50,043 nt of DNA from Chromatiales bacterium (lineage in GTDB: Bacteria; Pseudomonadota; Gammaproteobacteria; Chromatiales; Chromatiaceae): the NCBI GenBank assembly GCA_024762475.1, contig JANTHJ010000011.1, positions 1 through 50,043 of the forward strand, written 5' to 3'. The translations under genes and the position numbers were made by a program. Positions 1-36,142 of the stretch are shown here, piece after piece. The notes under the pieces are model-generated. The model was given only the letters and a program-made list of their open reading frames with translations, was not told where the DNA came from and did not search any database. Numbering within the stretch: position 1 is the stretch's first letter; every line of letters starts with the position of its first letter.

Positions 1-708
1 ATCACCGGCCTCGGCTCGGCCCTGGTGATGCTGGGACTGCATTATGACAGCGAGGCCGGGCGTGAGCTGGCGTCGCAGGTCATGCGCACCCTGCGGGACG
101 CTGCCTACAAGGCGTCGGTGGCATTGGCCGCGGAGAAGGGACCCTTTCCGGTATTCGACGCCGAGCGGCTGCTGGAAAGACCCTTTATCCAGCGCCTGCC
201 GCAGGACATCCGTGAAGGCATTCGCGAGTCCGGCCTGCGCAACAGCCATCTGCTGGCCATTGCACCCGCCGGTACCATCAGCCTGCTCGCCGGCAACGTC
301 TCCAGTGGACTGGAGCCGGTGTTCGCGGCACGCGTGGATCGACGGGTGCGCCTGTCACCCGAGCGCGCCGAAACCTTCACGGTGGAAGATGCCGCGATGC
401 ATCTTTGGCGTTCGCTGGGCCATGAGGGCCTGCCCCCGGCCTTCGTGACCGCAGACGAGATCGCGCCGCGCCATCATCTGCAGATGCAGGCGGTGCTGCA
501 GCACCATGTGGATCAGTCCATCTCCAAGACCATCAACGCCGCACCCGATACACCGTTTCGGGCCTTCGCCTCGCTCTATCGAGAGGCAGATCAACTGAAG
601 CTCAAGGGCTGTACCGTGTATCGCCCGAACCGATTGCGTGGCCAGGTGATCACGCCGCATAGCGACGAGGACGATCTGCCACAACATTGTGAGGTGTGCC
701 AAAGCTAG
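1..708 (+). CDS. nrdJ: Class II (adenosylcobalamin-dependent) ribonucleotide reductase, C-terminal part
   Basis: Only the last 235 residues are present; the reading frame is open from base 1, so the gene starts outside the window. Class II reductases convert ribonucleotides to deoxyribonucleotides in the cytosol using coenzyme B12. The stretch NSHLLAIAPAGTISLLAGN and the following VSSGLEPVF match the barrel segment of this family. KTINAAPDTPF and LKGCTVYRPN are typical of its C-terminal part. The protein ends in CEVCQS, a CxxC pair of the kind that relays electrons to the active site. No small radical subunit gene follows, consistent with class II, but the upstream side cannot be seen. A class I alpha subunit is the less likely alternative. 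Confidence 0.85.
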   Translation: MTGLGSALVMLGLHYDSEAGRELASQVMRTLRDAAYKASVALAAEKGPFPVFDAERLLERPFIQRLPQDIREGIRESGLRNSHLLAIAPAGTISLLAGNVSSGLEPVFAARVDRRVRLSPERAETFTVEDAAMHLWRSLGHEGLPPAFVTADEIAPRHHLQMQAVLQHHVDQSISKTINAAPDTPFRAFASLYREADQLKLKGCTVYRPNRLRGQVITPHSDEDDLPQHCEVCQS

Positions 709-753
709 CCTGGTTTTGTCATCTACATCTAGTCGCCAACAGAGGAGAAGCCC

Positions 754-963
754 ATGAACGACCATGTCTACAAGGTCATCGAGCTGGTCGGCTCGTCCAC
801 CATCGGCACGGACGACGCCATCCGCAATGCCATCGAGCGTGCAGCCAGGACCGTGAAGCACCTCGACTGGTTCGAGGTCGTCGAGCAGCGCGGCCATCTG
901 CAGGACGGCAAAATCGCCCACTACCAGGTCAAGCTCAAGGTGGGCTTCCGTCTGGAGGATTGA
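754..963 (+). CDS. Dodecin family flavin-binding protein
   Basis: A 69-residue protein with the dodecin pattern: an N-terminal beta strand (VYKVIELVGSS), one helix (DAIRNAIERAARTVKHLDW), and two strands ending in HYQVKLKVGF. Dodecins form hollow dodecamers that bind flavins in the cytosol, and the Trp in LDWFEV is at the position that stacks on the isoalloxazine ring in characterised members. A clear AGGAGAAG ribosome site lies just before the ATG. It follows nrdJ by 45 bases and is followed within 5 bases by a TetR-type gene, so the three may be co-transcribed. The physiological ligand cannot be read from the sequence. Confidence 0.9.
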   Translation: MNDHVYKVIELVGSSTIGTDDAIRNAIERAARTVKHLDWFEVVEQRGHLQDGKIAHYQVKLKVGFRLED

Positions 964-28061: not shown

Positions 28062-30029
28062 TTGAATAACAAGACTGGAAGCAGGGATCAGCTGAAACAC
28101 ATTGCCTGGCTCGCCTGCCTGCTGCTGTTCGTCGCCACCGGCGCCTTCGCCACCGACCGCAAGCTACAGCGTGAACAATTCATCGCAGCCGAAAAGGCAC
28201 TGCAGCGCAACGACCTGTCCGCGTACCGCAAACTCCGCGAACAGTTGCGCGACTACCCCCTGCTGCCCTATCTCGAACTGAAGGCATTGCGCGGCAGGCT
28301 GTCGAAGGCGGGCGACAAGGAGGTACAGCGGTTTCTCGAGCGATACGCGGGCACGCCGGTTGCCGACCTGCTGCGTCGGCCCTGGCTCGATCACTTGGCG
28401 CGCAACAAGCAGTGGCGACGTTACCTGAGCTTCTACCAGCCCCAGTCCAGCGTGCGCCGCCAGTGCCAGCACCTGCAGGCCCTGCTGGCGACTGGGCAGC
28501 GCGAGGCCGTATGGCCTGAGGCACGCCGGCTCTGGCTGCACGGCCGATCACGCCCCAAGGCCTGTGACCCGATCTTCAAGGCCTGGGAGGCCGCGGGCAA
28601 GCGTAACCGCAAGCTCACCTGGCAGCGCATAGATCTGGCCATGCGCGCCGGCCAGCTCAAGCTGGCAACCTACCTGGGCAAGGAACTTGGAAAGACAGAT
28701 CGCGCCTGGCTGGATCGCTGGATCGCACTCTACCGAAAGCCGGAAAAGGCCCGTGAGCACGCCACCTTCGCTGAGCGTCACCCCTGGCGAGAGGCGATGC
28801 TGGCGCAGGCGGTTCAGCGTATGGCCAGGCGCGACGGACTCGCCGCGATCGCACTATGGCAGTCCGTCGAGGGGCGTTACCCGTTTTCCACGAAACAGCG
28901 CTATCAGGTGAAGCGCCGCATAGCGATGGCAGTGGAGCGCAAGGACGGCACGGCCGCCTATCGCTGGATCCTGTCCGTCAAGCCCGGCCCGCAAGATACC
29001 CGCCTACATACCGCGCGCCTGAATGCTGCGCTGCTGCGGCGCGACTGGAAACAACTGGTCAGAGACCTACCCGCATGGCCGGATAGCGAACGCCGCACCG
29101 AGCGTTGGCAGTACTGGTTCGCGCGGGCGCTGGACGGCGTCGGGCAGCAGGCGGAGGCGAAAAAGATGTTCCGCCAGCTCGCCCGGCATCGATCCTACTA
29201 TGGTTTTCTCGCGGCCGACCGCGTGGATGCCCCCTATCATCTGATACACAAACGAACCCCTGCGGACAAAGGCCTGCTCGCCAACCTCAGGCGCGAATCC
29301 GGCATCCAGCGGGCCCTCGAGCTGCACGCACTACGACGTAACGTGGACGCCCGCCGGGAATGGCGCTATGCGACTCGCCAACTCGAAAAACCCTCGCTCA
29401 AGGCCGCTGCGCTTATCGCAGAGCGGGCCGATTGGCACGACCAGGCAATCTTTACGCTCGCCAAGACCGGTTACTGGGACGACCTGGAACTGCGTTTCCC
29501 CCTGCAGCACCGCAAGGTCGTATCCACCCAGGCGAAACAGAATGCACTCGACATGGCCTGGGTCTACGCAGTAATTCGCCAGGAGAGTGCCTTCATGCGC
29601 GATGCCCGATCCCGTGTGGGCGCACTCGGACTGATGCAACTGATGCCGGCTACCGCCCGGCAGGTCGCCCGTCACCAACTCGAGATCAAGCCGCCTCCAC
29701 GCCGCCGGCTACTCGAACCATCACTCAACATTCGGTTGGGCAGCGCCTATCTCAGGGAGCTCAAGGAACAGCTGGAGGACAATCCGGTGCTCGCAACCGC
29801 CGCCTACAACGCAGGCCCTCACCGTGTGAACCGCTGGCTGCCGAAGGAGGGCCTGGAAGCCGATATCTGGGTGGAGCTGATCCCGTTCAACGAGACGCGT
29901 AAATACCTGCGACGGGTGATGAGCTATACCGTCATCTACGACAAACGCCTGGGACGCGAGCCGCGACGGCTCAAGGAACGCATGAAGCCGGTCGCCAGTC
30001 TGGCCGACCAGCGCGTGGCGGGCGCCTGA
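28062..30029 (+). CDS. slt: Soluble lytic murein transglycosylase (Slt70 type)
   Basis: A 655-residue periplasmic enzyme that cleaves the MurNAc-GlcNAc bond of peptidoglycan with 1,6-anhydro product. It uses a TTG start. A signal peptide ends near residue 30 (LACLLLFVATGAFAT). A long helical superhelix domain occupies ~40-480. The C-terminal catalytic domain begins VYAVIRQESAFMRDARS with the active Glu, then VGALGLMQLMPATARQVA and LATAAYNAGPHRVNRWL, and ends ETRKYLRRVMSYTVIY. Length and order match E. coli Slt70 (645). Its stop abuts the stop of a converging Sel1 gene. With Mpl it fits murein recycling. Confidence 0.96.
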   Translation: MNNKTGSRDQLKHIAWLACLLLFVATGAFATDRKLQREQFIAAEKALQRNDLSAYRKLREQLRDYPLLPYLELKALRGRLSKAGDKEVQRFLERYAGTPVADLLRRPWLDHLARNKQWRRYLSFYQPQSSVRRQCQHLQALLATGQREAVWPEARRLWLHGRSRPKACDPIFKAWEAAGKRNRKLTWQRIDLAMRAGQLKLATYLGKELGKTDRAWLDRWIALYRKPEKAREHATFAERHPWREAMLAQAVQRMARRDGLAAIALWQSVEGRYPFSTKQRYQVKRRIAMAVERKDGTAAYRWILSVKPGPQDTRLHTARLNAALLRRDWKQLVRDLPAWPDSERRTERWQYWFARALDGVGQQAEAKKMFRQLARHRSYYGFLAADRVDAPYHLIHKRTPADKGLLANLRRESGIQRALELHALRRNVDARREWRYATRQLEKPSLKAAALIAERADWHDQAIFTLAKTGYWDDLELRFPLQHRKVVSTQAKQNALDMAWVYAVIRQESAFMRDARSRVGALGLMQLMPATARQVARHQLEIKPPPRRRLLEPSLNIRLGSAYLRELKEQLEDNPVLATAAYNAGPHRVNRWLPKEGLEADIWVELIPFNETRKYLRRVMSYTVIYDKRLGREPRRLKERMKPVASLADQRVAGA

Positions 30030-30794: not shown

Positions 30795-30838
30795 CCTCCC
30801 CCCGCTTGCGGGGGGAGGTGAAAAATCGAATTTTTCAC
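30795..30838. repeat. Double hairpin after the cyclase-like gene
   Basis: CCTCCCCCCGC (30795-30805) pairs perfectly with GCGGGGGGAGG (30808-30818), and GTGAAAAAT (30818-30826) pairs with ATTTTTCAC (30830-30838), which touches the TAG stop of the cyclase-like gene. On the minus strand the T-rich arm comes first and the GC stem second, so it is not a canonical terminator; it may be an intergenic REP-type repeat that stabilises or ends the transcript. Confidence 0.6.
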
Positions 30839-33171
30839 TAGCCTGCCGTGCGCGCGGAAGTCCGCATTTCCCGCCGCGCGCGGGCGATGATCTCCGGATC
30901 GGTAACGACCTCGTAGTAGACGCGCCCCGAACGGTCGCCCTCGAGCAGGCGATCTCCCATCCACAAGGGAAGCGGGGTCTCGCGGATCACCAGCCAGTGG
31001 CTGCTGCCGGTCAGATCGAGGTAACGTCCCACATGGCAGACCTCGGCACGGTCGCCCTGTGGTCGACCAAGGGTGATCCGGCGCAATCTGAGTTCTGCTC
31101 CCAGCTGAAAGAAGGCGGCAGCCTCCAGTTCGATGCCATTCACGTTGTAACGCAGCACCCCGTCAGGGTCGTACTTTGAACTCTGATTCTCCCGCACCGG
31201 CACCGCCACCACTACCCGCTGCCCGGGGTCGAGTCGGTCTGAAAGGATCCGGCGCATGGTCGGATGGCAGGACGACAGCCGGTCGGCGCGGTTGATGGCC
31301 GGCGATATCATGATCCGGTGGCCTTCGTCATAGAGATAGGTTGGCGCCTCATTGGAGTAGGCAATGCCGACCCCCAGCACCAGTTCGGGCAGCCCCAGGG
31401 TCCGGCTTTCGGCGTTCTTTGCCTCGACCACCTCGAGCACCCGTTGCGCCAGGCCGCAGGCACGCGCCACCGCCAGGTGATCACGCGGCTGACCCTCGAA
31501 CTCCATCAGCGAAAGGATCACTGCGTCCCCCTCGACAAACACCTTTTCCGCACCGAATGCGCGCAGCTGCTTGTTGATCGGGTCGTAGAGGTTGCGACTG
31601 AAGTAGGTGGCCGGATTGAGATTGCGCGCACGCATCTGCGCAGTAATCTCGGTAGAGCCTCGCACGTCCGCCTTGAGGACGACGTGGCCCACGACCCGCT
31701 GATCGGTTTCCTTGCTGCCGCGGCGGAAATCCTGCAGCAGATTGTTGGCTGCCGACATGGACAGGTCCTGCTGATCCTGCAGCAGGCGAATGTAATCCAG
31801 ACCATTGTAAAGCCAGGTAGCCAGCTTCAGATGGTAGCGATAATCCACCAGTTCGCTGAAGAAGCTGGCCAGCATGCGCTGGCCAGCATGCCGACCGGTC
31901 AATTCCACCGCCTTGATGCGCTCCTCGATCAGGCGCACCACCGGGCGGGCGTCTTCCACGCCCGGCAGGGTCTGCAGGCGTCGAACCAGTTCGCGTCCGC
32001 GGATCTCGCCAGCCAGATAGTCGAATACCCAGTCGACTCCGCCCCGCAGCCCGAGGTTGGGATACACCGACTTGAGCAGAAAGGACGCGCGGATACGCGA
32101 CATCAGGCCTGCTCTCTCGACACCCACCATCAGCTCCTTCATCTTCGCCCGCTGCAGGGTGATGAACTGGCGGCTGCTCCAAGGGCCCACCTGCGGCCAG
32201 GGCTCCACATCGCCCCCCAGCAACTGCAGGACCGCCTTGGCATTGTCGAACTCATGCGGCACCAGCATTGCCAGTTCGCCCTGATCGACCAGCAGGCCGG
32301 TACGCCTGAGTATTTCGGTGTGCCCCCGCAGCACCGAGTCTCCGGGCAATGCGCCCTCCTCCTGCAGTACCGAGTCTGCCGACAGTCCCAATTCGTCCGG
32401 CAACCACTCGGCCACTGCTTCAAAGAACAGCCGATTGAGCGTCTGGGCGTGCTCGTCGTTGCGCAGCACATGGGGATAATAGTTGAAGTAGTCCTCGTTC
32501 GACCCCAGCCCCCCGAGCTGCACCACCGGGTTGGCCAGCATGGCGCGCGACACCGGCCAGGACATGCCCATCACCGTCTTGCGCATCTTGCGCAGGTGGG
32601 AATCCTCCTGTCGCATCACCACGCGCATCACATCATGCAGCGTCCGGTATCGGATCGACTGCTCGTTGCGCGCCAGGATCACCACCTTGTCGTGCAGCTC
32701 CAGGCTGCGACCGCTGTACCGGCGAGCCGGCTGCGAGCGGGCATCCTCCAGTTCGCGACGCAACTCCTGAAGCTGGTGGTCCACCTGCTCGATCAGCAAT
32801 CTGATCACCGCCAGCTGGAACAGCTGACAGGATTCAGGACGCGCCCTGGCACGGCTCTCGCGCAACACCAGGCGTGTGTTCTCAGAGTAGTTGCGGCGGA
32901 AGACCTCCGCCACGTCGAGATCGGGCGCCTTGGGGGCCTCGTCCCAGAAATAACGACGCACATCCTCGTTGAGGGTACTCCGGACCAGGGAAATGGCCGC
33001 GTCGATCAGCTCCGGATCCAGCGCCACATCGATGTGGGTGCTGTCCACCCCGCGCGGGAAACGTTCCAGGCGCAGGCGATGGAAGGCAGGCCTCGCCATA
33101 CGCGACAGCACCGTCTTGCGATCCATCCGCGATCGCTGTTGGCCCAGCAGTAGCGATTTCATCGACTGCAT
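30838..33171 (-). CDS. Large protein with a class III nucleotide-cyclase-like domain
   Basis: A 777-residue protein with a good AGGAGACAT ribosome site. Residues ~1-485 are mostly helical, Arg-rich, and not recognised. Residues ~495-665 resemble class III adenylate/guanylate cyclases: KADVRGSTEI with Asp502, FVEGDAVILSLME with Asp549 (47 residues apart, as in metal-binding pairs), LGVGIAYSNEAP, and SPAINRADRLSS, which keeps the Asn and Arg of the usual NLAAR motif. The Phe after the first Gly is replaced by Ser. A C-terminal domain of ~110 residues follows. There is no membrane segment. It lies 32 bases after the rsd gene. Activity and product are unknown. Confidence 0.7.
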   Translation of the reverse strand: MQSMKSLLLGQQRSRMDRKTVLSRMARPAFHRLRLERFPRGVDSTHIDVALDPELIDAAISLVRSTLNEDVRRYFWDEAPKAPDLDVAEVFRRNYSENTRLVLRESRARARPESCQLFQLAVIRLLIEQVDHQLQELRRELEDARSQPARRYSGRSLELHDKVVILARNEQSIRYRTLHDVMRVVMRQEDSHLRKMRKTVMGMSWPVSRAMLANPVVQLGGLGSNEDYFNYYPHVLRNDEHAQTLNRLFFEAVAEWLPDELGLSADSVLQEEGALPGDSVLRGHTEILRRTGLLVDQGELAMLVPHEFDNAKAVLQLLGGDVEPWPQVGPWSSRQFITLQRAKMKELMVGVERAGLMSRIRASFLLKSVYPNLGLRGGVDWVFDYLAGEIRGRELVRRLQTLPGVEDARPVVRLIEERIKAVELTGRHAGQRMLASFFSELVDYRYHLKLATWLYNGLDYIRLLQDQQDLSMSAANNLLQDFRRGSKETDQRVVGHVVLKADVRGSTEITAQMRARNLNPATYFSRNLYDPINKQLRAFGAEKVFVEGDAVILSLMEFEGQPRDHLAVARACGLAQRVLEVVEAKNAESRTLGLPELVLGVGIAYSNEAPTYLYDEGHRIMISPAINRADRLSSCHPTMRRILSDRLDPGQRVVVAVPVRENQSSKYDPDGVLRYNVNGIELEAAAFFQLGAELRLRRITLGRPQGDRAEVCHVGRYLDLTGSSHWLVIRETPLPLWMGDRLLEGDRSGRVYYEVVTDPEIIARARREMRTSARTAG

Positions 33172-33203
33172 ATGTCTCCTTGCGGCCCAGCGGCTCCTCG
33201 CAG

Positions 33204-33650
33204 TCAGCTCCCCAACAGGGCAGCGATGATCCGGTCTTCCATTTCCGCTCGAATGGCCAGTTCCTCGCCCAAGCTGTTCAGATCATCACCCAACGCGTGC
33301 AGATCCAGCCGGTGGTCATTCGCGTCATACCTGTCATTGAACTCGACTGCGGCCTCGGTGGCCTCCGCGATGCGCGGGTACACCTCACGCGCCACCTCGA
33401 TCACCCCCGTGCGCCGTTCGCGGCCGTTGATGATCCGTTCGTAGATCTCGAAGTGGGCAAAGGCCGAATAATCGACCAGAAGCTCGCAAAATCGCTGCAA
33501 GAGCTGGTCGAAATCATCTTCCTCGCCCTTGTCGAGGGGCTGGGCGCCCGCCAGCTTGCAAAACTTCACCACCAGCTGTTGTCGCTCCTCGAGCAACTTG
33601 TCGATCGTATCCCGCGTACCGGTGCGACGTTCCTGCCTGCCCGTGCTCAT
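33204..33650 (-). CDS. rsd: Rsd/AlgQ-type anti-sigma-70 factor
   Basis: A 148-residue helical protein starting at MSTGRQERR, where GGAGAA precedes the ATG. The segment LLVDYSAFAHFEIYERII, with its Asp-Tyr and His-Phe-x-Ile-Tyr-Glu-Arg core, is the Rsd/AlgQ signature. REVYPRIAEATEAAVEFNDRY and LGEELAIRAEMEDRIIAALL complete the match to E. coli Rsd. Rsd binds region 4 of sigma-70 (RpoD) in the cytosol and favours alternative sigma factors in slow growth; it also affects SpoT in E. coli. The gene is followed by the cyclase-like gene in an apparent two-gene operon, an arrangement not familiar to me. rpoD itself is at 45206. Confidence 0.87.
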   Translation of the reverse strand: MSTGRQERRTGTRDTIDKLLEERQQLVVKFCKLAGAQPLDKGEEDDFDQLLQRFCELLVDYSAFAHFEIYERIINGRERRTGVIEVAREVYPRIAEATEAAVEFNDRYDANDHRLDLHALGDDLNSLGEELAIRAEMEDRIIAALLGS

Positions 33651-33785
33651 TTCTCCAATCCGTGTTCCATCCCCGCAATCAGACATCTACCACCTCGACC
33701 CGCATTTCGGTTTCCGACGCGACAAGGCATGGCCTAGAATCGCTTTGTACGCAAGTTTAACCTTAAATTCCTCAAAAGGTGTGCT

Positions 33786-34391
33786 GTGCAGGCATATGCG
33801 AAATTGCTGATGATCGGCTTGCTGCTGGGCCTGGCCGGCTCTGCCGCGCCGGCCACCACAGGCAGCCCCTTCATGGACATGATGCGCGGCATGGCGACGG
33901 GACTTGCCCTGCTCGGGCAAAACAGCAGCACCTCCCCAACCACCGTGTATCCACAGATCCAGGCGCTGCCGATTCCCGGCTATCCCCCATTTGCATCCGG
34001 CCTTCCCTGGGCACCGTCATTCCCTGGCCTGCCCCCCAACCTACCCTATGGGGCAAGCCCTTATGGCAGCACCCCCTGGCCGCCCCCCGCTCCTTATGCC
34101 GGGGGCGGCAACATACTGAGCAGGCTGCAGGGAGCCTGGGAAAGCAGCAACGGCAGCTTGCTCCTGGTGCGCAACAACATGGCGCGGCTCTATGTCTCGC
34201 GTGACCAGTATCAGGATCTCTATATCACTGCCGGTCCTCGCTATCTGTGGTTGCGGCCGGTCAGGGGCCAGAGTCCGACCCGCTATGAGCACCACATCTA
34301 TCGGGACCGCATGGTACTGCGTGACGGACGCGGCAACAGCCTCGTCCTGCGCCGTTACAAGCCGAAGACGTCGGACGGGAATCTGCCTTGA
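33786..34391 (+). CDS. Secreted Pro/Gly-rich protein, function unknown
   Basis: A 201-residue protein from a GTG start with AAAGGTG before it. A signal peptide (LLMIGLLLGLAGSAAPA) is followed by a low-complexity region at ~45-110 rich in Pro, Gly, Tyr and Ser (PIPGYPPFASGLPW and similar). A compact C-terminal domain (~110-190) begins SRLQGAWESSNGSLLLVRNN and contains RLYVSRDQYQDLYITAGPRY. That domain could be a small beta-rich lipocalin-like or DUF fold; I do not recognise it. It is divergent from rsd and followed by the NDUFA9-like gene. Confidence 0.7.
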   Translation: MQAYAKLLMIGLLLGLAGSAAPATTGSPFMDMMRGMATGLALLGQNSSTSPTTVYPQIQALPIPGYPPFASGLPWAPSFPGLPPNLPYGASPYGSTPWPPPAPYAGGGNILSRLQGAWESSNGSLLLVRNNMARLYVSRDQYQDLYITAGPRYLWLRPVRGQSPTRYEHHIYRDRMVLRDGRGNSLVLRRYKPKTSDGNLP

Positions 34392-35440: not shown

Positions 35441-36142
35441 TCAAATCGGAAAGAACACCGCCGAGGCCACACTCTGAATCACGTTCTTGATGCGCCGGTT
35501 GCTGGCCTCGGCGACCACCTGCGCAAAATGATCGTGCAGCGCCACCAGCTTGCCGAACAGACGCTCGAAGCTGGCGTTGAAAGTCCCACCCGGTCCGGCA
35601 CCGCCACTCAGCAACAGCGGCCGCCCCCGGGCATCCCGCCTGGCCCGCAGGCGCCAGGCCGCGATCTCGACATTGCGCGCGAGGTAGTAGATCTTCTGCG
35701 GATGATAGTCGTGCGACAGGTAGAAATCCCCCTCGCCACCATAGGCGGCGATGGCCATGCTGCGCAGCCCGTAGACGAAGGCCGCGACCCGGTCGCCGCG
35801 AAACCCTTCTGACAAGCCAAGCATGATCAGGTCGCCACCGCGTCGATTCTGCCACTGCACCGACAGGCGCCGGGGCGGGCTCCCCAGCAAGGCGCGCACC
35901 GCTGCCTCGCGCTCACCGAGGCCACGCCGCAGCTGGTCCGGGTTGCGGCGATAGAGTTTCTCGGCGAGCTCGCGCAGATAGCGCCGATGCTGGCGCACCG
36001 TGATCTCCGCCACCATATCGATATCGCCCTTCGCCACGTCCTGCAGACGAAAGTCGCGGACCTGCATGGCGCTCGGTGGCGGTGGACTCTGGCAGCCCGC
36101 CACGAACAACACGGCAAGGATCAGCCACTCACAGCGACGCAC
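35441..36142 (-). CDS. Lipoprotein of unknown function
   Basis: A 233-residue protein with a lipoprotein signal (MRRCEWLILAVLFVAGC; Cys17 after VAG) and Pro-rich linker SPPPPSAM. The mature region is helical with AEITVRQHRRYLRELAEKLY, LVQWQ-type strands, LGLSEGFRGDRVAAFVYGL and SHDYHPQKIYYLARNVEIAA. I recognise it only as the kind of conserved lipoprotein found in gammaproteobacteria. Its start overlaps the end of the methyltransferase gene by 14 bases, so expression is probably linked. Confidence 0.75.
   Translation of the reverse strand: MRRCEWLILAVLFVAGCQSPPPPSAMQVRDFRLQDVAKGDIDMVAEITVRQHRRYLRELAEKLYRRNPDQLRRGLGEREAAVRALLGSPPRRLSVQWQNRRGGDLIMLGLSEGFRGDRVAAFVYGLRSMAIAAYGGEGDFYLSHDYHPQKIYYLARNVEIAAWRLRARRDARGRPLLLSGGAGPGGTFNASFERLFGKLVALHDHFAQVVAEASNRRIKNVIQSVASAVFFPI

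Follow-up and report, generated by a model that had tools for sequence, protein, structure and literature searches.

A family of class III cyclase-fold proteins missed by domain databases and encoded beside rsd in a lineage of Gammaproteobacteria

Canonical class III nucleotidyl cyclases choose their substrate by a pair of residues in the base pocket, Lys/Asp for ATP and a pair of the Glu/Cys type for GTP. The asparagine of the transition-state Asn/Arg pair can be absent from active members. Ma1120 is an active cyclase with alanine at the position of the asparagine (PMC4215837), and Rv1900c is active with histidine there (PMC4886424). In the cyclase-like DUF2652 proteins the asparagine is also replaced, and the arginine is sometimes glutamine (PMC4886424). 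The base pockets of the PycC cyclases are made up of Y50, D94 and R97 in BcPycC, of F100, R142 and Q144 in EaPycC, and of F60, K104 and F109 in AnPycC (PMC11224242). Then there are the Rsd/AlgQ anti-sigma-70 factors, of which the product of one gene described here is a clear member. The cyclase-fold gene described here is not known from the setting of rsd in E. coli, and a literature search for a pairing of rsd with a cyclase-like gene found no paper.

The DNA considered here, called the window, is a stretch of 50,043 nucleotides from a bacterium of the Chromatiales (contig JANTHJ010000011.1, positions 1 to 50,043). An earlier note, written by a model from the letters alone, had read in it a gene for Rsd/AlgQ followed 32 bases later by an open reading frame of 777 residues, and both the identity of the first gene and the spacing stand. 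The first gene, rsd or algQ (regulator of sigma D; 33204..33650, minus strand), encodes a protein that matches PF04353 with E 1.2e-39, at 136 bits against a Pfam cut-off of 35, and that matches the E. coli Rsd structures 4xwj and 2p7v with E about 1e-13. Its frame is open from an ATG at 33686 (33204..33686, minus strand). The likely start is the ATG at 33650, where it had first been placed; TTGGAGAA stands before this ATG and agrees with the placement.

Between the stop of rsd and the ATG of the large gene (33172..33203, minus strand) no terminator-like site was found, and the Shine-Dalgarno sequence AAGGAGA, a strong ribosome-binding site, precedes the ATG. The large gene (30838..33171, minus strand) belongs to no Pfam or NCBIfam family. 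Its 777-residue frame is nonetheless real: relatives with as little as about 28% identity keep it unbroken and long, which is far beyond chance. As judged from the sequence, rsd and the large gene are probably translated from one message in the lineage of the window. Downstream of the pair and convergent with it lies slt, a gene for a lytic transglycosylase (28062..30029, plus strand, PF01464). Upstream of rsd lies a divergent gene (33786..34391, plus strand) whose product of 201 amino acids has no match in Pfam or NCBIfam; that product has a hydrophobic, signal-like stretch at its N-terminus and a middle rich in Pro and Gly. Further along, 35441-36142 (minus strand) encodes a predicted lipoprotein of 233 amino acids (VAGCQSPPPP), with no match in Pfam, adjoining a Methyltransf_28 gene.

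Of the 210 genomes of the order, 119 have the large gene; it is present in 9 of 185 genomes taken from across the class and in 8 of 398 taken from across the phylum. A search of plasmid records for its relatives found none. The carriers that have names are bacteria that oxidise sulfur, or relatives of such bacteria: Sedimenticola, Thiodiazotropha, Achromatium, Thiohalocapsa, Beggiatoa, Thiomargarita and Thioploca, with tubeworm endosymbionts (Lamellibrachia, Escarpia, Endoriftia) among them. Full-length relatives, with E values down to 1e-221, occur also in small genomes from a different class within the phylum (L124-L132, family f194), and no rsd was found within the 1.5 kb flanks of these loci. 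Within the genus of the window, one genome (G247) is without rsd and without the large gene. Another (L046 in G248) has the large gene in pieces, in two frames and on two contigs, with only an rsd-like fragment of 79 amino acids about 3 kb away. That break-up is probably a matter of assembly fragmentation, possibly one of decay.

The reading in the earlier note hung in part on whether the two genes are neighbours in related genomes, and they are. Within the order, rsd scores over the cut-off in 105 of the 210 genomes: 97 have both genes, 22 the large gene alone, 8 rsd alone, and 83 neither. Of the 97 genomes with both, 93 have rsd directly upstream of the large gene and on its strand. Three of the other four have the genes on different contigs, and the fourth (G212) went into the count with no position for the large gene. 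Counted by genera, 24 have both genes, 8 only the large gene, 6 only rsd, and 23 neither (Fisher p 3e-5, uncorrected for relatedness). A gene tree gathers 68 of the proteins into one group, mostly rsd-linked (59 of them) and with several apparent losses of rsd, and sets apart 16 others, mostly from Thiotrichaceae, not seen to be rsd-linked; some of the loci come without upstream DNA, and long branches leave the details of the tree unsure. The pairing of rsd with the large gene is stable in one large gammaproteobacterial lineage, and this much is secure.

What the pairing means is less easily said. One view is that it has no functional meaning, that the two genes belong to a part of the chromosome long conserved as a block, with the cyclase-fold protein working by itself. 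The family does occur without rsd, in Thiotrichaceae (Beggiatoa, Thioploca) and in the 22 genomes of the order counted above. In several cases (L057, L065, L068, L104, L121) rsd is missing from a block that at least partly persists, and the large gene has stayed. Among 46 loci with long flanks, the two neighbours on the opposite strand are kept about as well (the divergent gene in 36, slt in 35) as is rsd (in 38), and still other genes stay near the pair. Against this view, the two genes are practically never apart where both are present, their presences are associated at the level of the genus, and rsd is the same-strand neighbour, at a short distance in the lineage of the window.

The distance is not short everywhere. 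In 24 of 58 linked loci the gap is at least 200 bases, so co-transcription is not general. Since conservation extends to the entire block and the gap is often this long, adjacency supports a shared function and does not prove it. A functional link between Rsd and the large protein is only suggested, because the family also lives without rsd and because the block around the pair is itself broadly conserved. I would rate adjacency without functional meaning as somewhat short of an even chance. It concerns the link and nothing else, and it is compatible with the large protein being a catalyst or a sensor.

What sort of protein is it? Comparison of the full 777 amino acids (phmmer, profiles) found no relative in Pfam, NCBIfam, PHROGs, or the sequences of the PDB, and Pfam gave no meaningful match with 27 relatives of the protein. 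Neither PF00211 (Guanylate_cyc) nor PF10851 (DUF2652) matched the protein of the window or the 27 relatives above cut-off. Weak matches to M20 peptidase and to NodH were judged to be chance.

The fold is more telling. In an AlphaFold2 model built with 78 aligned sequences (pLDDT 86.8), the C-terminal part has the order of strands and helices of a class III cyclase. The top matches of the model in Foldseek are all class III cyclases, led by 2bw7_B (E 1.2e-6, prob 1.00), and VIA-align lays 169 of its residues on 6ao9 (RhoGC) with Z 17.7 and rmsd 2.5. A single canonical cyclase compared with the family alignment gave only E 0.019, and for this reason 25 canonical class III cyclases, drawn from the bacterial class of the window, were aligned with one another. 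Compared with this set by sequence alone, in hhalign, the C-terminal alignment reaches prob 97.0 with E 1e-10 across 109 columns; the comparison shares its family alignment with the fold prediction. Hhalign pairs D502 and D549 with the metal-binding Asp positions of the canonical cyclases, and for the helical N-terminal part, the control, the prob is 0.1.

The class III nucleotidyl cyclase fold predicted for the C-terminal part I take to be secure. A structural match to this fold had been named beforehand as a test, and it was found; the cyclase features that the earlier note saw at residues 495-665 or so lie within it. The fold takes in residues from about 473 to 762 (30886..31755, minus strand). 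Only the description of the last 110 or so residues as unrecognised must be given up, because the range spanned by VIA, 473..762, makes residues 666-762 the end of the cyclase fold. In the window, the large gene stands for a family of class III cyclase-fold proteins that neither Pfam nor NCBIfam registers.

The remainder of the protein resembles nothing so clearly. Residues 1-470 (31762..33171, minus strand), folded alone by AlphaFold2, form an all-helical unit (pLDDT 87.8, pTM 0.89), and the family alignment has conserved blocks there at G41, D43, D48, R197, W205, Y232, D309, and K449. The N-terminal 485 residues or so had been called unrecognised, and for about 460 helical residues the description is apt. 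With this part alone, Foldseek found no match at E<=0.001, profile search found nothing credible, and the best that VIA offered (myosin V tail, cullins) had Z 7.0, below what VIA calls meaningful for helical models. A missing structural match does not prove a new fold.

The two aspartates first noticed from the sequence, D502 and D549, are in place 47 apart, as are GVGIAYS (600-606) and SPAINRADRL (623-632), the latter containing N627 and R631 four apart. Both aspartates are kept in 77 of the 78 rows of the alignment. The second pair is more variable: NR in 41 rows, NQ in 18, GR in 10, HR in 5, and others in 4. An Asn/Arg pair complete in only 41 of 78 points to transition-state chemistry under non-uniform selection. 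The protein of the window keeps the full set of metal-binding Asp and Asn/Arg.

The base-selecting pair of adenylyl or guanylyl cyclases, Lys/Asp or Glu/Cys-type, is not found. At the place of the canonical Lys, four residues ahead of the second Asp, 75 of 78 rows have Phe (F545), and at that of the canonical Asp, seven ahead of the Asn, 73 of 78 have Ile (I620); both places follow from the profile alignment and from what is known of mammalian adenylyl cyclase. Two further residues do not vary in any of the 78 rows: K500, two positions ahead of the first Asp, and E547, at the same distance from the second. The published PycC pockets share some positions with the large protein, with other residues there.

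In sum of likenesses, the large protein has in common with canonical class III cyclases (PF00211; CyaC, CyaB, Rv1625c, RhoGC) the fold, the order of strands and helices, the two metal-binding aspartates, and the motif N-x-A-x-R. It differs from them in escaping PF00211, in having Phe and Ile in place of the purine-selecting Lys and Asp along with the invariant K500 and E547, in an Asn/Arg pair incomplete in about half of its family, in a big helical N-terminus, and in a longer stretch from the Asn/Arg helix to the last strands. With the cyclase-like proteins of DUF2652 (PF10851), the family shares EGDA around the second Asp and, in some members, a replaced Asn or Gln for Arg. Those, however, are single-domain proteins of about 250 amino acids, whereas the large protein has no Pfam match, and comparison of the profiles gives E 0.007 and prob 5.6.

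I propose that the large protein is most likely a divergent cyclase of class III that selects its base in a non-standard way, a proposal in which, from the model and the alignment, I have moderate confidence, belief and doubt being about equal. It would be a soluble protein whose all-helical N-terminal region, about 460 residues long, senses an input or transmits it to the cyclase domain. The C-terminal domain would form a head-to-tail dimer, with two metal ions and an NTP bound by Asp502 and Asp549. Choice of the base would fall not to the Lys/Asp or Glu/Cys pairs but to the unusual pocket of K500, F545, E547, and I620. The product would be a cyclic mononucleotide. In the lineage of the window, where rsd and the large gene are probably co-transcribed, a protein that sequesters sigma-70 and a cyclase-like protein would be made together, and the large protein may have a functional tie to Rsd.

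Catalysis by the protein of the window seems plausible, because it keeps the metal-binding Asp and the Asn/Arg sets and because Ma1120 and Rv1900c are active without the Asn. For the family as a whole catalysis is not established. The host of the window also encodes other class III cyclases and has 11 cNMP-binding matches. On one contig of the same genome (G000, C90:2327-3992, L133-L135), a cNMP-binding domain and a canonical class III cyclase domain are encoded about 1 kb apart, likely an ordinary cyclic-nucleotide module.

The main rival of a divergent cyclase is a cyclase-fold protein that does no chemistry at all but binds a metal-nucleotide, sensing for example the level of NTP, and relays the signal by way of the helical region to another protein, perhaps Rsd. 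It would make sense of metal-binding aspartates kept almost everywhere and yet an Asn/Arg pair so often incomplete. It would also suit the hydrophobic residues at the purine-selecting positions (F545, I620), the invariant K500/E547 pair, which could as well occlude the pocket, and a large, conserved helical part with no convincing match in solved structures, known cyclase regulators included. But active cyclases without the Asn do exist (PMC4215837, PMC4886424), the full set is present in 41 of 78 rows, that of the window among them, and the strict keeping of both metal-binding Asp is usual for enzymes. I regard such a sensor as possible and worth serious thought, though rather to be doubted.

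It is too much to suppose that the large protein is the pyrimidine cyclase of a Pycsar anti-phage system, a very improbable idea that is set aside here: PycC has in common with it the class III fold (VIA-align Z 16.1 of the AlphaFold2 model to the PycC uridylate cyclase 7r65), a pocket not of the purine type, and weak matches to PycC models (E 0.018 over residues 495-637 of the protein of the window; best E 6e-4 for family members with the PADLOC models, in a scan with a 28-row alignment), but the large protein is three times as long, its base-pocket residues differ from those of the described PycC clades (PMC11224242), no effector neighbour was seen, with no gene for a PycTM or PycTIR receptor among the selected neighbours scanned, and throughout an order the gene stays within a housekeeping block, which is not the manner of a mobile defence gene.

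To return to the divergent cyclase, its boldest form would be a new class III subfamily with a new base pocket, making an unusual cyclic nucleotide and coupled to Rsd, and so a second-messenger arm of growth-phase control in sulfur oxidisers and the symbionts of invertebrates. All of that together I think unlikely. If the family is not catalytic, then it is a widely kept nucleotide-binding pseudoenzyme, itself something uncommon. If it is catalytic, then it would add to class III a subfamily of non-standard base choice that is invisible to Pfam and NCBIfam, and a cyclase would be tied to Rsd, a protein about whose upstream signals little is known except in E. coli.
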